A DNA stretch of 64,000 bases, taken from the NCBI GenBank assembly GCA_002162075.1, contig CP021423.1, forward strand, positions 868,001 through 932,000. The letters are read 5' to 3'. Within the stretch, counting starts at the first letter, position 1; each line of letters begins with the position of its first letter. The notes below the pieces were generated by a model that was not told the origin of the DNA, searched no databases, and saw only the letters and a program-made list of their open reading frames with translations. Shown piece after piece: positions 43,987 through 52,168 of the stretch. The DNA comes from Armatimonadetes bacterium Uphvl-Ar1 (GTDB taxonomy: Bacteria; Armatimonadota; Fimbriimonadia; Fimbriimonadales; Fimbriimonadaceae). Made by a program: the position numbers and the translations under genes.

Positions 43987-44011
43987 ACATTTGCTTGACA
44001 AGAGCAAATGT
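43987..44011. promoter_or_regulatory. Candidate operator palindrome upstream of the PEP-CTERM gene
   Basis: ACATTTGCT and AGCAAATGT form a perfect 9-bp inverted repeat with a 7-nt spacer, overlapping a TTGACA. It is 22 bp before the PEP-CTERM start and 19 bp after the AraC gene. It could be the AraC-family target or a hairpin that ends that transcript. Confidence 0.4.
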
Positions 44012-44032
44012 AGATTGACAGTGGTGAAAGCC

Positions 44033-44659
44033 ATGAATCGAACAAAACTAACAACCCTCTTGCTTTTGGCCGCTCTTTCGGGATCAGCCTTGGCACAACA
44101 AACGTTTGACGTCTCCGTTTCTCCGACACAAACTTCGGCAGACAACATCGGCGTCCTTTTCTCTTATACAACCGGGGGGACAACCGTAGGGTTGATCGCT
44201 CCGCTTGACTTGACCGCTCCAGTTGGTCAAACGACGACGACGAGCTTTGGGACAAATGTTGAATTGAGCTCACTTCAGTACGGAATTCTTGGTTCTTATG
44301 GCGAATCTGGGGTCACGGTTGGAGTCGACTCCATTGTTGCCCAAACTTTGGTTGGGAAGTCATGGGATCAAGTTTTCGGAGTTGGTCTCTTTTCTGAGTC
44401 AACGATTCGGACGGCCCTTGATACGGACAACTTTGGGTTGCAGTTTGCTTTTGCAGACTATTTGGCAACTCTGTCGTTTGATGTGAATGGATCTTCCCGC
44501 GACCTTTACGCTGAACTTGGTTCGGATGTGACTTTGCTCAACTTTTCGAATGCCAGTTTGAATGGTTCGGCAAGCGTTGAGGCGGTTCCAGAACCGGCTA
44601 CCATGCTGGTTCTCGGGATGGGAGCTGTCGCGGCAGCGATTCGACGTAAGCGAAAATAG
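44033..44659 (+). CDS. PEP-CTERM sorting-signal protein
   Basis: About 208 residues. A signal peptide (LTTLLLLAALSGSALA) is followed by a beta-rich extracellular domain without recognised motifs and the C-terminal sorting signal AVPEPATMLVLGMGAVAAAIRRKRK: a VPEP motif, a membrane helix and a basic end. Such proteins are processed by an exosortase and usually put in the extracellular matrix or cell surface. No exosortase is in the window. The ATG at 44033 starts the signal peptide. Confidence 0.88.
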   Translation: MNRTKLTTLLLLAALSGSALAQQTFDVSVSPTQTSADNIGVLFSYTTGGTTVGLIAPLDLTAPVGQTTTTSFGTNVELSSLQYGILGSYGESGVTVGVDSIVAQTLVGKSWDQVFGVGLFSESTIRTALDTDNFGLQFAFADYLATLSFDVNGSSRDLYAELGSDVTLLNFSNASLNGSASVEAVPEPATMLVLGMGAVAAAIRRKRK

Positions 44660-47744: not shown

Positions 47745-48197
47745 ATGAGCGATTTGAAGAGACCAGTTGTCGAGCTGGAGTGGACGGTTGAGCTGGGTAA
47801 GCAATTGGCTCAAAAGAGGATTCCGGTTGCGATTGCTGGTCTTGTCGCGGCGGGATTTGGGGCCGTGTTTATCGGCATTTTTGGAGCCTTCTTGGGGGTT
47901 GCGGTTGTTTTTGTTTCGACGGCGGAGCTTTGGATGCCGATGCGCTTTAAGTTGACGAGCTATGAGGCTTCGGCGCGAGTTGGGCTGAGTGTAACGGCGA
48001 TCCGATGGGAGAATGTTAAGCGGGTTTTAGAGACAGATCAGGGTGTAACGCTCTCTCCATTGGAAAAAAGTTCTCGTTTGGATGCATTTCGGGGGGTTTA
48101 TCTGCGATTTAGTAGCAACCGGAGCGAAGTTTTAGCCAAAATAGCCGAACTTACCGAACGAAATGGAAGCGACCTGGACAGAGAAGCTGACGCCTGA
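47745..48197 (+). CDS. Membrane protein with PH-like domain (first gene of the unknown membrane cluster)
   Basis: About 150 residues. Two adjacent membrane helices (VAIAGLVAAGFGAVFIGIFGAFLGVAVVFV) are followed by a small beta domain of bacterial-PH character: FKLTSYEASARVGLSVTAIRWENVKRVLETDQGVTLSPLEKSSRLDAFRGVYLRF. The 'I-W-ENVKRV...G-x-x-LSP...SRL-x-x-FRGV' pattern is that of PH-like membrane proteins, as in the pair at 7039 and 7604. It starts at the first base after the prs stop and overlaps the next gene by 35 bases, so it leads the cluster. Confidence 0.7.
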   Translation: MSDLKRPVVELEWTVELGKQLAQKRIPVAIAGLVAAGFGAVFIGIFGAFLGVAVVFVSTAELWMPMRFKLTSYEASARVGLSVTAIRWENVKRVLETDQGVTLSPLEKSSRLDAFRGVYLRFSSNRSEVLAKIAELTERNGSDLDREADA

Positions 48198-48537
48198 GGA
48201 GGAAGAGTATTTGATTGCTCAACTGGCCTATGAGGTGAAGCGGCGGAAGATGGAGACACCGGCGGTGTTTTTCATTGAAGCGCACAAGCCTTTGGCGGGG
48301 TTGTCCGAATCTCTTTCGGTGGTATTGACCCCTTTTCTTGCTCCTTTTATTGGTTTGGGAAACGTCCAGGGGTATGGTCGCTTGTTGAACAACCGTGATG
48401 CGGTTGATCGTTTGCTATTGGCTTTGGAGGATCCGAGTGATCCAGTGAAGCCGGTGAAACCGCTTTCGATGATGGAAGAGGGAACTGAAGGAACTGCAAT
48501 GACGAGTAAGAATGCTGAGGTGAATTCCGATGTTTAA
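48163..48537 (+). CDS. Hypothetical protein (cluster gene 2)
   Basis: About 124 residues. Central segment RRKMETPAVFFIEAHKPLAGL precedes a hydrophobic stretch (LSVVLTPFLAPFIGLGNVQGYG) and a helical NNRDAVDRLLLALED. The 'R-K-M-ETPA-x-FF-IE-x-HKPL' sequence looks conserved and structured rather than random. The protein is probably membrane-peripheral. It overlaps both its neighbours (35 bases upstream, 8 downstream), so co-translation is likely. I cannot name the family. Confidence 0.65.
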   Translation: MEATWTEKLTPEEEEYLIAQLAYEVKRRKMETPAVFFIEAHKPLAGLSESLSVVLTPFLAPFIGLGNVQGYGRLLNNRDAVDRLLLALEDPSDPVKPVKPLSMMEEGTEGTAMTSKNAEVNSDV

Positions 48538-49495
48538 TTGGTTACAAGGTGAACAGTATCTTGATACTGCTCCGGTGGGGATTTTCGTGACCCTTTTGGT
48601 GGTGGTGTTCATCTTGGTGAATATTAGTCGGGCCAAGAAGGGGAGCGAGGGGTTGTTCATTCGCCGGATTTCAGGTTTGAACGCGATTGATGATGCGATT
48701 GGGCGAGCTACAGAAATGGGCCGTCCGGTTTTGATGGTTCCGGGGATTGGGGCTCTTGATGCGATTTCTGTTCAGGCGGTCAACATTTTTGCTCAGGTCA
48801 CGAAGTCAGCGGCTCAGTTTTCAACTCCGGTTCGGCTTTGCTGTGGGAATGCGGCGGTTTATGCTTTTGCCCAGGAAGTTATTCGAGACGTTTATTCTCA
48901 GCAGGGGATGGGCGACCGGTTTACTCCTGAAACGGTTCAGTATATTTCTGAACAGCAGTTTGCGTTTGCGGCTGGGGTCAGCGGGATTATTCACCGGGAA
49001 AAGGTTGCAGCGACGTTTTTGCTCGGGGCGTTCTATGCAGAGTCTTTGATTTTTGCTGAGACATCAAACGCAATTGGAGCGATTCAGGTCGCAGGTTCCA
49101 CTCAGGTGACGCAGACACCGTTCTTTATTGCGGCTTGTGACTATGTTTTGATTGGGGATGAGTTTTATGCGGCGTCGGCTTATTTGACTCGGGAGCCGGT
49201 TTTGGTCGGATCGTTGGTTGGGCAAGATTGGGCGAAAATCCTAGTTGCGAGCACAGTTCTCTTCGGGACAATTTTCCAGTCAGTTGAATTGACGGGAATG
49301 ACGACCGAGCATCGGGCCGGAAACGCAATGGTTTCCGTTGCCGAGTCAAGCAATGGGGAGCGGACCGAGGAGCGGAAGAAGAAGACCGATACGATGACAA
49401 ATCGCTTGTTTAACCCCTTCATTCCGGAAGAATTGACGAAGATTGAGCGCGAGAAAAAAGAGACAGCGCAGGCAGCTGAGGGAGAGGGCGAATAA
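48530..49495 (+). CDS. Membrane protein, possibly DUF6754 type (cluster gene 3)
   Basis: About 321 residues. One N-terminal membrane helix (VGIFVTLLVVVFILVNIS), then a domain with VLMVPGIGALDAISVQAVNIFAQV, VRLCCGNAAVYAFAQEVI and AAFTFLL-like AATFLLGAFYAESLIFAE, then a second helix (LVASTVLFGTIFQS) and a charged cytoplasmic tail. From memory it resembles proteins called DUF6754; I could not check that. GAGGTG lies eight bases before its ATG, and its stop overlaps the next start (TAATG). Confidence 0.7.
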   Translation: MFNWLQGEQYLDTAPVGIFVTLLVVVFILVNISRAKKGSEGLFIRRISGLNAIDDAIGRATEMGRPVLMVPGIGALDAISVQAVNIFAQVTKSAAQFSTPVRLCCGNAAVYAFAQEVIRDVYSQQGMGDRFTPETVQYISEQQFAFAAGVSGIIHREKVAATFLLGAFYAESLIFAETSNAIGAIQVAGSTQVTQTPFFIAACDYVLIGDEFYAASAYLTREPVLVGSLVGQDWAKILVASTVLFGTIFQSVELTGMTTEHRAGNAMVSVAESSNGERTEERKKKTDTMTNRLFNPFIPEELTKIEREKKETAQAAEGEGE

Positions 49496-50427
49496 TGAAC
49501 TTGATGCAATACATGCTGGCTCAGCAGGCCATCGAAGAGACGTTTTGGCGAAAGGCGCCGGGCCAAGGTTTGATTCTTTGGGTGGTTATTGGTTTGGCCC
49601 TCGGGACAGGTCTTTGTTTCTTGCTTTCTACGGTTCCGACGAATCTGCGGAAGAAAGTCATTTTTACGTTTACGTTCCTTGCGGGATTGCCTTATGTTTT
49701 GGCCTTTTTGTGGCCAAGGCCGATTAGCGCGGACTTCACAAATGATATTCCCCGAAACAAAGGAGAAGAGATTGGTTTCTTCATCAATCAGGCAGTGGAG
49801 CCGGTCGGGACGCTGACAAATATCCTCGGCGGGTTCTTGCTCGGGGTTGGGATTTTCTCCTTAGTTCGTGTTCATTCGATCCGGATTAAGCGAAGACAGG
49901 AGAACTGGGGTTACTCCCTTGTTCTGTTGGCAAGCTTTGCAATCATGACGGTAGTCGGATTTTGGGACTGGCGACTGAGAGCATTTGTTGATCAAACGGG
50001 GGCGTTGAACGTGCGGGATAACTGGCAACCTGTGAACTATGCACAGGATTTGCTGTTTGAAGGGATTTATCAGCAGATGGATTCGGCAATGTTCTCGATG
50101 ATTGCCTTCTTCATCCTTTCGGCGGCGTACAGAGCCTTTCGAATTCGGAGTGTGGAGGCGACGGTTATGATGGCATCGGCGTTGATTTTGATGCTGAACC
50201 TTATGGGGGCACTCACCTATGCATGGGGTGAGGGGATCAACAACTTGGTGGTTCAAACGGGTAATCCGTTCTTGATGAACTTCAAACTGAACGTTTTTGC
50301 GGATTGGCTTCGGTCGACGATGCAGATTCCGGCGATTCGGGCGATTGATTTTGGTGTTGGCCTTGGTGCGTTGGCGATGGGTCTTCGGCTTTGGCTCGGT
50401 TTGGAAAAAGGTGGTGTAACGGCATGA
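49495..50427 (+). CDS. Polytopic membrane protein (cluster gene 4)
   Basis: About 310 residues with roughly seven membrane helices (for example LILWVVIGLALGTGLCFLLS, VIFTFTFLAGLPYVLAFL, SLVLLASFAIMTVVGFWDW, MFSMIAFFILSAAYRAF). A loop after the second helix reads PRPISADFTNDIPRNKGEEIGFF. No transport-family signature is recognised. It overlaps the next gene by ATGA. It is likely the main membrane subunit of the cluster. Confidence 0.7.
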   Translation: MNLMQYMLAQQAIEETFWRKAPGQGLILWVVIGLALGTGLCFLLSTVPTNLRKKVIFTFTFLAGLPYVLAFLWPRPISADFTNDIPRNKGEEIGFFINQAVEPVGTLTNILGGFLLGVGIFSLVRVHSIRIKRRQENWGYSLVLLASFAIMTVVGFWDWRLRAFVDQTGALNVRDNWQPVNYAQDLLFEGIYQQMDSAMFSMIAFFILSAAYRAFRIRSVEATVMMASALILMLNLMGALTYAWGEGINNLVVQTGNPFLMNFKLNVFADWLRSTMQIPAIRAIDFGVGLGALAMGLRLWLGLEKGGVTA

Positions 50428-51374
50428 CAATTTGGGAAAAGATGCAGAAAGTTGACCGTCGCATTTTGTATGCGATTTTGGTTGTGTGCGTTTGTGTTGG
50501 GTTGTTCTTCCCAACTACGATTCCGACTGATCCTGACCCCAGCAGCAAGTCGTTTTATGCTGAAGTGATGAAGCTGGAGAAAGGGTCTACAGTCATTATT
50601 CAGACAGATTGGACTAACAGTACTCGTGGTGAGAGTATGGGTCACTTTGAGAATTTGATGCGGTTGATGATGCACGGTGATCATAAGTTCGTGTTCTATT
50701 CAGCGGCTGACCCGGCGGCTCCCCAGGTAGCGCGGACGGTTCTGGCCCGTATTGTTGCCGAACGCAAAGGTCAGGGACTCCGGGAGTACAAGGTAGGCGA
50801 GGATTACATTGACCTTGGATTCTTCCCAAACGCTGAGGCAACGAATACCACGATGGGATCGAACTTGCGCTCAGTGTGGGCGAATCGCAAGTCGAAGACA
50901 CCGACGGGAGGCGAAGTTGATGTTTGGCAAACGCCGGTGCTTAAAGATGTCAAGAACATCGGGGATATTGACATGATGATAGTTGTGACGGCATCGGCTT
51001 CGATTGATGTTGCGATTCAGCGACTCGCGCAGAAGGTTCCGATCACGGCGATGGTTACGGGAGTTACTGGTCCGGGGGTTTTGCCGTTCTACCAATCGGG
51101 GCAGGTCAAGGGACTAGCGATAGGATTGAAAGGCGTTTATGACGTTGAGTACATGATGGTCAACGGGATCAACGATGTTGAGGTGGAAGGCCAGAAAGTC
51201 GTTGAGTGGGACAAAGTTGGCAAGGTTGACCGGGTGAGCGAAGGGACTACGTTCTCGCGGGGGCGGGCCTATTACGGGACGCTCCACGTTGCACTGGTTT
51301 TGCTGATCTTGGCGGTAATCATGGGCAACGTTGCGATGTTTGCGAGCCGACGACGAAAAGGAGATGCAGTCTGA
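50424..51374 (+). CDS. Two-helix protein with extracytoplasmic domain (cluster gene 5)
   Basis: About 316 residues. An N-terminal helix (ILYAILVVCVCVGLFFP) and a C-terminal one (LHVALVLLILAVIMGNVAMF) flank a ~230-residue extracytoplasmic domain. It contains GSTVIIQTDWTNSTRGESMGHFENLMRLMM, HKFVFYSAADPAAPQVARTVL and IDMMIVVTASASIDVAIQRL, then TGVTGPGVLPFYQSGQVKGL. Two alternating alpha/beta layers suggest a substrate-binding or sensor fold, not a known one. AAGGTGG lies upstream of ATG 50424; the stop overlaps the next ATG (TGATG). Confidence 0.7.
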   Translation: MTIWEKMQKVDRRILYAILVVCVCVGLFFPTTIPTDPDPSSKSFYAEVMKLEKGSTVIIQTDWTNSTRGESMGHFENLMRLMMHGDHKFVFYSAADPAAPQVARTVLARIVAERKGQGLREYKVGEDYIDLGFFPNAEATNTTMGSNLRSVWANRKSKTPTGGEVDVWQTPVLKDVKNIGDIDMMIVVTASASIDVAIQRLAQKVPITAMVTGVTGPGVLPFYQSGQVKGLAIGLKGVYDVEYMMVNGINDVEVEGQKVVEWDKVGKVDRVSEGTTFSRGRAYYGTLHVALVLLILAVIMGNVAMFASRRRKGDAV

Positions 51375-52168
51375 TGGACTATGATGCAATCAAGATAACG
51401 GCGGGGGTGATTGCCACGATTGGCCTGTACAGCATCCTCTACAAAGAAAACAAGTTCTACCGGTTCTTTGAGCATGTGTTCTTGGGATTGGCGGCGGGCT
51501 ACACAATTGTTGCTCAGTGGAAAGATACGTTGTATCCCCAGTGGTGGCTCAAAATGTTTGGTCAGGTTGCCGATGTCGATGCGGCAACGGGTGCGGTGAC
51601 GAGTCCGGCGGTTCCGGGGAACTGGATTTATGCGGCGATGCTCCCGATTGGGCTTTTGGCTTACTTGGTCTTTAATCGGAAGCACAACTGGATGAGCAAG
51701 ATTCCGATTGGGGTCATTTTGGGCTTGTGGTCTGGACAACAGATTCAAATTTGGTGGAACACCTGGGGTCCACAAATTTACAGTTCGATGCAGCCGATTA
51801 TTCCGACGACTTTCAGCACTTTGTCAGTGCCGGCTACGGTTGAGGTCGTCAATGGTCAGGTAATGCCAATTCAGGATCCAGTTGCTTTGGCGAACGTTCA
51901 GCAGCAATTGGCAAACAACCTTTACTTGACTCAAGCGTTGACGAACTTCATTTTTGTCTTGACCTTCGCCTCGGCGTTTAGCTACTTCATTTTCAGCTTT
52001 GAATTGAAGGGCAAGTTCTTGACCGGGATCAACAAGTTTGGTCGCTGGATGCTGATGATTGGTTTTGGTGCGATCTTTGGTAGTACGGTTATGGCTCGAT
52101 TTGCGTTGGTCATTGACCGGATGAGCTATATCGTGAACGAGTGGGTGCAGGCATTAACGCAGAGGTAA
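51374..52168 (+). CDS. Polytopic membrane protein (cluster gene 6)
   Basis: About 264 residues with five or six membrane helices (ITAGVIATIGLYSIL, IYAAMLPIGLLAYLVFN, IPIGVILGLWSGQQIQIWW, FIFVLTFASAFSYFIFSFEL and a C-terminal MLMIGFGAIFGSTVMARFAL). A ~65-residue extracytoplasmic loop with many Gln/Val lies between helices 4 and 5. It begins with NKFYRFFEHVFLGLAAGYTI. AAGGAG lies upstream of its ATG. It closes the cluster; recO follows within 10 bp. No family recognised. Confidence 0.7.
   Translation: MDYDAIKITAGVIATIGLYSILYKENKFYRFFEHVFLGLAAGYTIVAQWKDTLYPQWWLKMFGQVADVDAATGAVTSPAVPGNWIYAAMLPIGLLAYLVFNRKHNWMSKIPIGVILGLWSGQQIQIWWNTWGPQIYSSMQPIIPTTFSTLSVPATVEVVNGQVMPIQDPVALANVQQQLANNLYLTQALTNFIFVLTFASAFSYFIFSFELKGKFLTGINKFGRWMLMIGFGAIFGSTVMARFALVIDRMSYIVNEWVQALTQR

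Follow-up and report, generated by a model that had tools for sequence, protein, structure and literature searches.

What do six overlapping genes for membrane proteins, packed onto one strand of a bacterial chromosome, do together? We examined this question in a window of 64,000 nucleotides (C1:868001-932000) from the closed, 2.99-Mb genome of Armatimonadetes bacterium Uphvl-Ar1 (G000; contig CP021423.1), in which a first-pass annotation had described six consecutive reading frames that overlap or touch one another and had proposed that their products form a membrane complex. We conclude, with a probability of roughly 60%, that the products of these genes, here g1 to g6, are the parts that lie in or next to the membrane in a single inner-membrane machine of eight components, whose two cytosolic ones, a MutL-type ATPase and a barrel-sandwich/KOW protein named lip here, are encoded outside the window. 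The six genes are as follows.

47745..48197, + strand: g1, a membrane protein of 150 amino acids (aa) with one strong hydrophobic segment followed by a soluble C-terminal part.
48163..48537, + strand: g2, a small, conserved protein of 124 aa without a family; E39, P43 and P57 are invariant.
48530..49495, + strand: g3, a DUF6754 protein, predicted as transmembrane (TM) helix, Rossmann-type domain, TM helix.
49495..50427, + strand: g4, 310 aa, with seven predicted TM helices and a conserved SAAYRAFR motif.
50424..51374, + strand: g5, 316 aa, predicted as TM helix, Rossmann-type domain, TM helix.
51374..52168, + strand: g6, 264 aa, with six to seven predicted TM helices, invariant E33, R242 and R249, and a Gly-rich helix.

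All coordinates and junctions of the first-pass annotation were confirmed. The gene g1 directly follows the end of prs (47744), and the five junctions overlap, in order, by 35, 8, 1 (TAATG), 4 (ATGA) and 1 (TGATG) bases. The start of g5 is most likely the ATG of the ATGA at 50424, which gives 316 aa, and not the upstream TTG at 50391 of the mechanical open reading frame (ORF). A further small correction is that a clean AAGGAG stands before g6 only, the other internal starts having GAGG- or GGAG-like sites. Hydropathy gives seven helices in g4, two helices plus a ~230-residue domain in g5, and six to seven helices in g6.

Family membership says little about function. The annotation's guess for the third product was correct, as g3 matches DUF6754 (PF20539) over its full length (Pfam; E 4.7e-90, 301.6 bits against a cut-off of 27). 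Searches of Pfam and NCBIfam returned no family for g1, g2, g4, g5 or g6, and scans of their relatives (27-85 per gene) gave no consistent Pfam family, with none in 43 relatives of g4 or in 40 of g6. Pfam transporter families appeared at most as isolated weak matches among 40-85 relatives of g4, g5 and g6. That no functionally known family is recognisable in the cluster therefore stands, since DUF6754 has no described function and no transporter family was matched; a full-text search of the open-access literature, to which all our literature searches refer, found DUF6754 named in no paper. The product of g1, annotated as a PH-like membrane protein, is indeed a membrane protein and is plausibly PH-like, with 3 of 27 relatives matching bPH_6 (best E 0.028).

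If the six products work together, their genes should remain together, and they do. Of 291 Armatimonadota species genomes, 252 have DUF6754, which is absent from all 14 control genomes. Among the Armatimonadota loci that were fetched, 43 of 55 keep the succession g1-g2-g3-g4-g5-g6, with all six genes on the same strand. The other 12 mostly miss genes on one flank, in many cases close to where a contig ends; further exceptions include two loci that appear shuffled (over-long mechanical ORF starts) and one with a second g3. The arrangement is not due to chance. Beyond Armatimonadota, the best 80 loci of named genomes show the quartet g3-g4-g5-g6, in this order, in about ten candidate phyla (Poribacteria, WOR-3/Stahlbacteria, Zixibacteria, Coatesbacteria, Fermentibacteria/Aegiribacteria, Riflebacteria, Edwardsbacteria, Latescibacteria, Eisenbacteria and CSSED10-310), with g2 lying either before MutL or after g6. 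Gene order, which the first-pass annotation had offered as a check on its proposal, is thus kept within the phylum and outside it, and neither scattered homologues nor a known transporter family appeared. The position between prs and recO, also noted there, is true here but a local matter: prs adjoins the cluster in 12 of 60 loci and recO in 17 of 60. We rejected prs, glmU and recO as functional partners, as this neighbourhood is confined to Fimbriimonadales.

Some of these loci contain two further genes. A MutL-type gene (PF13941) and the gene for lip, of 370 aa, lie at most a few kilobases from the quartet in several phyla, among them Fermentibacteria/Aegiribacteria, Zixibacteria and Riflebacteria. 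All eight genes occur together in five fetched, diverse Armatimonadota loci (L146, L147, L148, L151 and L157) and are contiguous in three of these. Two of the three (L147 of G281 and L148 of G248) read g1-g2-MutL-lip-g3-g4-g5-g6, and the third (L151 of G207) reads g1-g2-g3-g4-g5-g6-MutL-lip, which is the window's cluster followed directly by both extra genes. The six genes of the annotated cluster are hence linked as described, but two more conserved, cytosolic parts had been missed. In G000 these lie at the following positions.

C1 about 662.0-663.8 kb (family match C1:662352-663824; whole gene L133:7002-8846), minus strand: MutL, PF13941.
C1:23441-24558 (L138:5442-6568), in two frames: lip, barrel-sandwich/KOW protein.

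The MutL protein matches PF13941 above the cut-off (E 3.5e-129, 430.9 bits), has the full ASKHA motif set, and shows invariant ATP-site motifs (DCGSTTTK, DIGGATTD and GSGG). Across phyla, mean column identity is 66% for MutL (12 sequences) and 59% for lip (17 sequences), far above the identities of the membrane proteins. In Fimbriimonadales, the gene immediately after lip, on its strand and often overlapping it, encodes an OmpR-type response regulator (L138:6565-7233 in G000), and the arrangement recurs in L139, L144, L153 and L182-L187; this protein is possibly a regulator or a read-out of the system.

Joint absence is better evidence for a single system than adjacency, because the genes sit in two or three places in most genomes. 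MutL was found in 261 of the 291 Armatimonadota genomes. In the near-complete genomes, MutL and DUF6754 are both present in 179, both absent from 10, and found singly in 5 (Fisher p = 1.1e-12, not corrected for relatedness; the sub-cut-off MutL match of G253 was counted as an absence). The five genomes with a single one are metagenome-assembled genomes (MAGs) of 130 contigs or more and so likely reflect missing pieces of fragmented assemblies; lip was present in all three of those tested (G004, G012 and G196). The distribution of lip and g5 matches that of DUF6754 and MutL, save for single missing pieces in fragmented MAGs, and both are likewise absent from the genomes that lost the system (G001-G003, G005, G133, G134, G253, G046, G048, G049 and G051). 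By group codes, and not on a tree, the losses trace to about four lineages: f6/f8, f13 in part (g77, g79 and g80), f41 in part (g140) and f1/g25. Two of the genomes concerned, G133 and G134, represent a small-genome lineage of the Fimbriimonadaceae family (1.5 Mb, 97% complete) and have lost the whole module while keeping Omp85.

The quartet also duplicates as a block. Six loci (L085, L093, L099, L102, L112 and L126) hold two quartets, mutually diverged by about 32-60% in sequence. For the sister pairs L093/L099 and L102/L126, all four members of a quartet have their closest relatives in one and the same quartet of the sister locus, and the copies have not swapped members; for L085 and L112 the nearest relatives of the quartet members vary. 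The distance matrices of the four genes correlate at 0.78-0.94, a figure that partly reflects shared phylogeny. A single g2, MutL and lip stand alongside the quartets in L102, L126, L087 and others. On these sequence comparisons, the simplest reading is that the quartet would be a co-dependent complex of four proteins served by a common cytosolic pair, and two quartets per single MutL, lip and g2 hint that one engine may serve membrane modules that can be exchanged. The membrane complex of the first-pass annotation gains support here, in that g3-g6 duplicate together and the copies keep their own partners.

Because an eight-gene operon exists in several lineages, because two of the genes, linked or not, co-occur throughout the phylum, and because g3-g6 duplicate as a unit, the eight genes very probably constitute one system. 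Unlinked co-loss and block duplication thereby turn a vague cluster of unknown proteins into a defined system of eight parts, with an obvious engine to mutate, so that experiments on cultured Armatimonadota could test its function directly. Few systems conserved over about ten phyla consist mostly of components without a family or a literature.

How might these parts be arranged? AlphaFold2 models place a Rossmann-type alpha/beta domain between two TM helices in g5 (mean predicted local distance difference test score, pLDDT, 94; predicted template modelling score, pTM, 0.91), and the same architecture is predicted for g3 (mean pLDDT 86, pTM 0.77). By the positive-inside rule, this domain is predicted to be cytosolic in g3 and extracytoplasmic in g5. 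Other phyla and deep Armatimonadota have a longer g3 with an extracytoplasmic N-terminal part that is missing from the window's g3; by reading of the sequences from other phyla, a signal-like and FN3-like part precedes the first TM helix, which agrees with an N-out topology. The soluble domains resemble folds of the Sir2, CODH epsilon, MT0777 and RCK kind (Z 10-11.5 for g3 and 8-8.8 for g5), MT0777 and CODH epsilon being matches common to both. The likeness is one of fold, with sequence similarity not beyond chance; unlike those proteins, the g3 and g5 domains are set between two TM helices, and no characteristic motif was recognised in them. A profile comparison of g3 with g5 (hhalign; pairwise E 3e-4, probability 39%) is suggestive of paralogy.

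We propose that the MutL-like ATPase, with its actin-like (ASKHA) fold, would turn over ATP, with lip linking this cycle to the g3 domain on the cytosolic side. Motion may then be passed on through g4 and g6, the predicted polytopic core, to g5, whose substrate would be a component of the envelope that it exports, inserts or remodels. That the system performs ATP-driven mechanical or transport work is somewhat favoured by our analysis; that this work is specifically envelope export or remodelling is doubtful.

Several other readings of the same parts were weighed. The one that survives best, although it is unlikely, is a gated sensor or channel, in which the cytosolic g3 domain would bind a ligand or nucleotide as RCK domains do and gate a path through g4 and g6, with g5 sensing the outside and MutL regulating. 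MthK RCK domains are indeed among the best g3 matches (Foldseek E 3.6e-3, VIA Z about 10), g6 and g4 have invariant charged residues within or close to their predicted TM helices, and a response regulator adjoins lip in Fimbriimonadales. However, Sir2, PGK, CODH epsilon and MT0777 score equally well or higher for g3, so that the resemblance to RCK-gated channels is at the level of the fold; no pore or selectivity motif was recognised in the cluster, and a dedicated, extremely conserved ATPase with a barrel-sandwich protein would be unusual for a channel.

The nature of lip suggests a somewhat less probable reading, a redox or ion-coupling complex of Rnf/Nqr-like logic, with lip as an RnfC/NqrA-like subunit and the Rossmann domains as cofactor sites. 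The lip protein combines a barrel-sandwich hybrid domain, the signature that it shares with RnfC/NqrA and with biotinyl/lipoyl domains, with a KOW/SH3-like C-terminus; among 17 relatives, 13 match Biotin_lipoyl, 10 RnfC_N (best E 1.2e-5) and 7 NQRA_N, and both CODH epsilon and transhydrogenase domain III are among the fold matches of g5. Yet the lip alignment has no invariant cysteine, and lip differs from RnfC/NqrA in lacking the Fe-S cysteines, in its C-terminal part and in its partners, no Rnf/Nqr membrane subunit family having been found among the scanned relatives of g4, g5 and g6. An ASKHA ATPase, moreover, has no place in Rnf/Nqr.

MutL/GlmL-type ATPases are named as mutase accessory proteins. 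By this precedent, the ATPase could be a reactivase or chaperone that repairs a B12-dependent or other enzyme, the membrane proteins serving merely as an anchor, which we consider improbable. The PF13941 membership and the similarity to GlmL and Or-4 models speak for it, but MutL falls below the NCBIfam cut-offs for GlmL (229 of 475 bits for the equivalog and 188.7 of 204 for the subfamily), and at ~600 aa it is longer than GlmL and the ornithine Or-4 protein (about 450-460 aa). Its conserved partners are membrane proteins, tying it to a membrane complex where GlmL and Or-4 are tied to a mutase operon. Methylmalonyl-CoA mutase was rejected as the partner, being present in 3 of 36 genomes tested in a search that did not cover glutamate and ornithine mutases. 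The position between prs and recO in G000 might suggest co-transcribed, unrelated housekeeping membrane genes with no common machine, the least probable reading and one already disfavoured, since DUF6754, MutL and lip, though unlinked, were lost jointly in about four lineages and the quartet duplicates as a block.

An ATP-driven inner-membrane machine remains our preferred reading, and four points weigh against it. Foldseek gave no match below E 1e-3 for g3 or g5, leaving weak fold matches. In the locus neighbourhoods, conservation extends to no ninth gene. The role of the ATPase could be regulatory or chaperone-like, not driving. Finally, lip is split by a frameshift in the window's assembly, through a one-base length difference, by reading, in a G run near L138:6085; the gene is intact in all seven congeners, which points to a mistake in the assembly or else to a mutation that arose very recently.

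We know of no system that pairs a MutL-type ATPase with a membrane quartet of this kind. Sequence searches of the PDB produced no convincing match for g3, g5, lip or MutL, and the GlmL, ASKHA and Armatimonadota literature contained no description of such a system, which, being confined to open-access texts, is weak evidence. With most components lacking a family and the combination of ATPase and quartet unmatched, the system is apparently undescribed. It may, at slightly less than even odds, represent a new class of ATP-driven bacterial envelope machine, one that almost all Armatimonadota possess and that recurs widely in other phyla that have been little studied, most of them candidate phyla. 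In such a machine, an actin-fold ATPase of the MutL type, together with a barrel-sandwich adaptor, would drive a complex of four inner-membrane proteins whose Rossmann domains mirror each other on its two faces. MutL/GlmL-type ATPases may thus power or regulate a membrane complex.

Three links to known envelope functions were considered and rejected. Coupling to TonB/ExbB/ExbD fails since ExbD is absent from G000 and from all Fimbriimonadales tested, and present in several genomes without the module. ExbD adjoins the system in Fermentibacteria and WOR-3; in three Fermentibacteria/Aegiribacteria loci (L101, L115 and L123) the quartet is followed by genes for a TonB-dependent-receptor-like protein, ExbB, ExbD and a TonB-like protein, which is not so in Armatimonadota. 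A division between outer-membrane and monoderm bacteria does not explain the distribution, BamA/Omp85 being present in 36 of 36 genomes tested, module carriers or not. As to polysaccharide export, Wza/Wzz genes lie beside MutL in two genomes, yet Poly_export occurs in 35 of 36 genomes regardless.

Some neighbours of the cytosolic pair are not general. MutL or MutL-lip adjoins Wzz/Wza-like export genes in L140 (G163) and L152 (G223), and a gene for a secreted phosphodiester-glycosidase-like protein in L141 (G217) and L152. Within the window itself, upstream of g1, positions 43991-44659 encode a secreted protein with a PEP-CTERM-like C-terminus (VPEPATMLVLGMGAVAAAIRRKRK).

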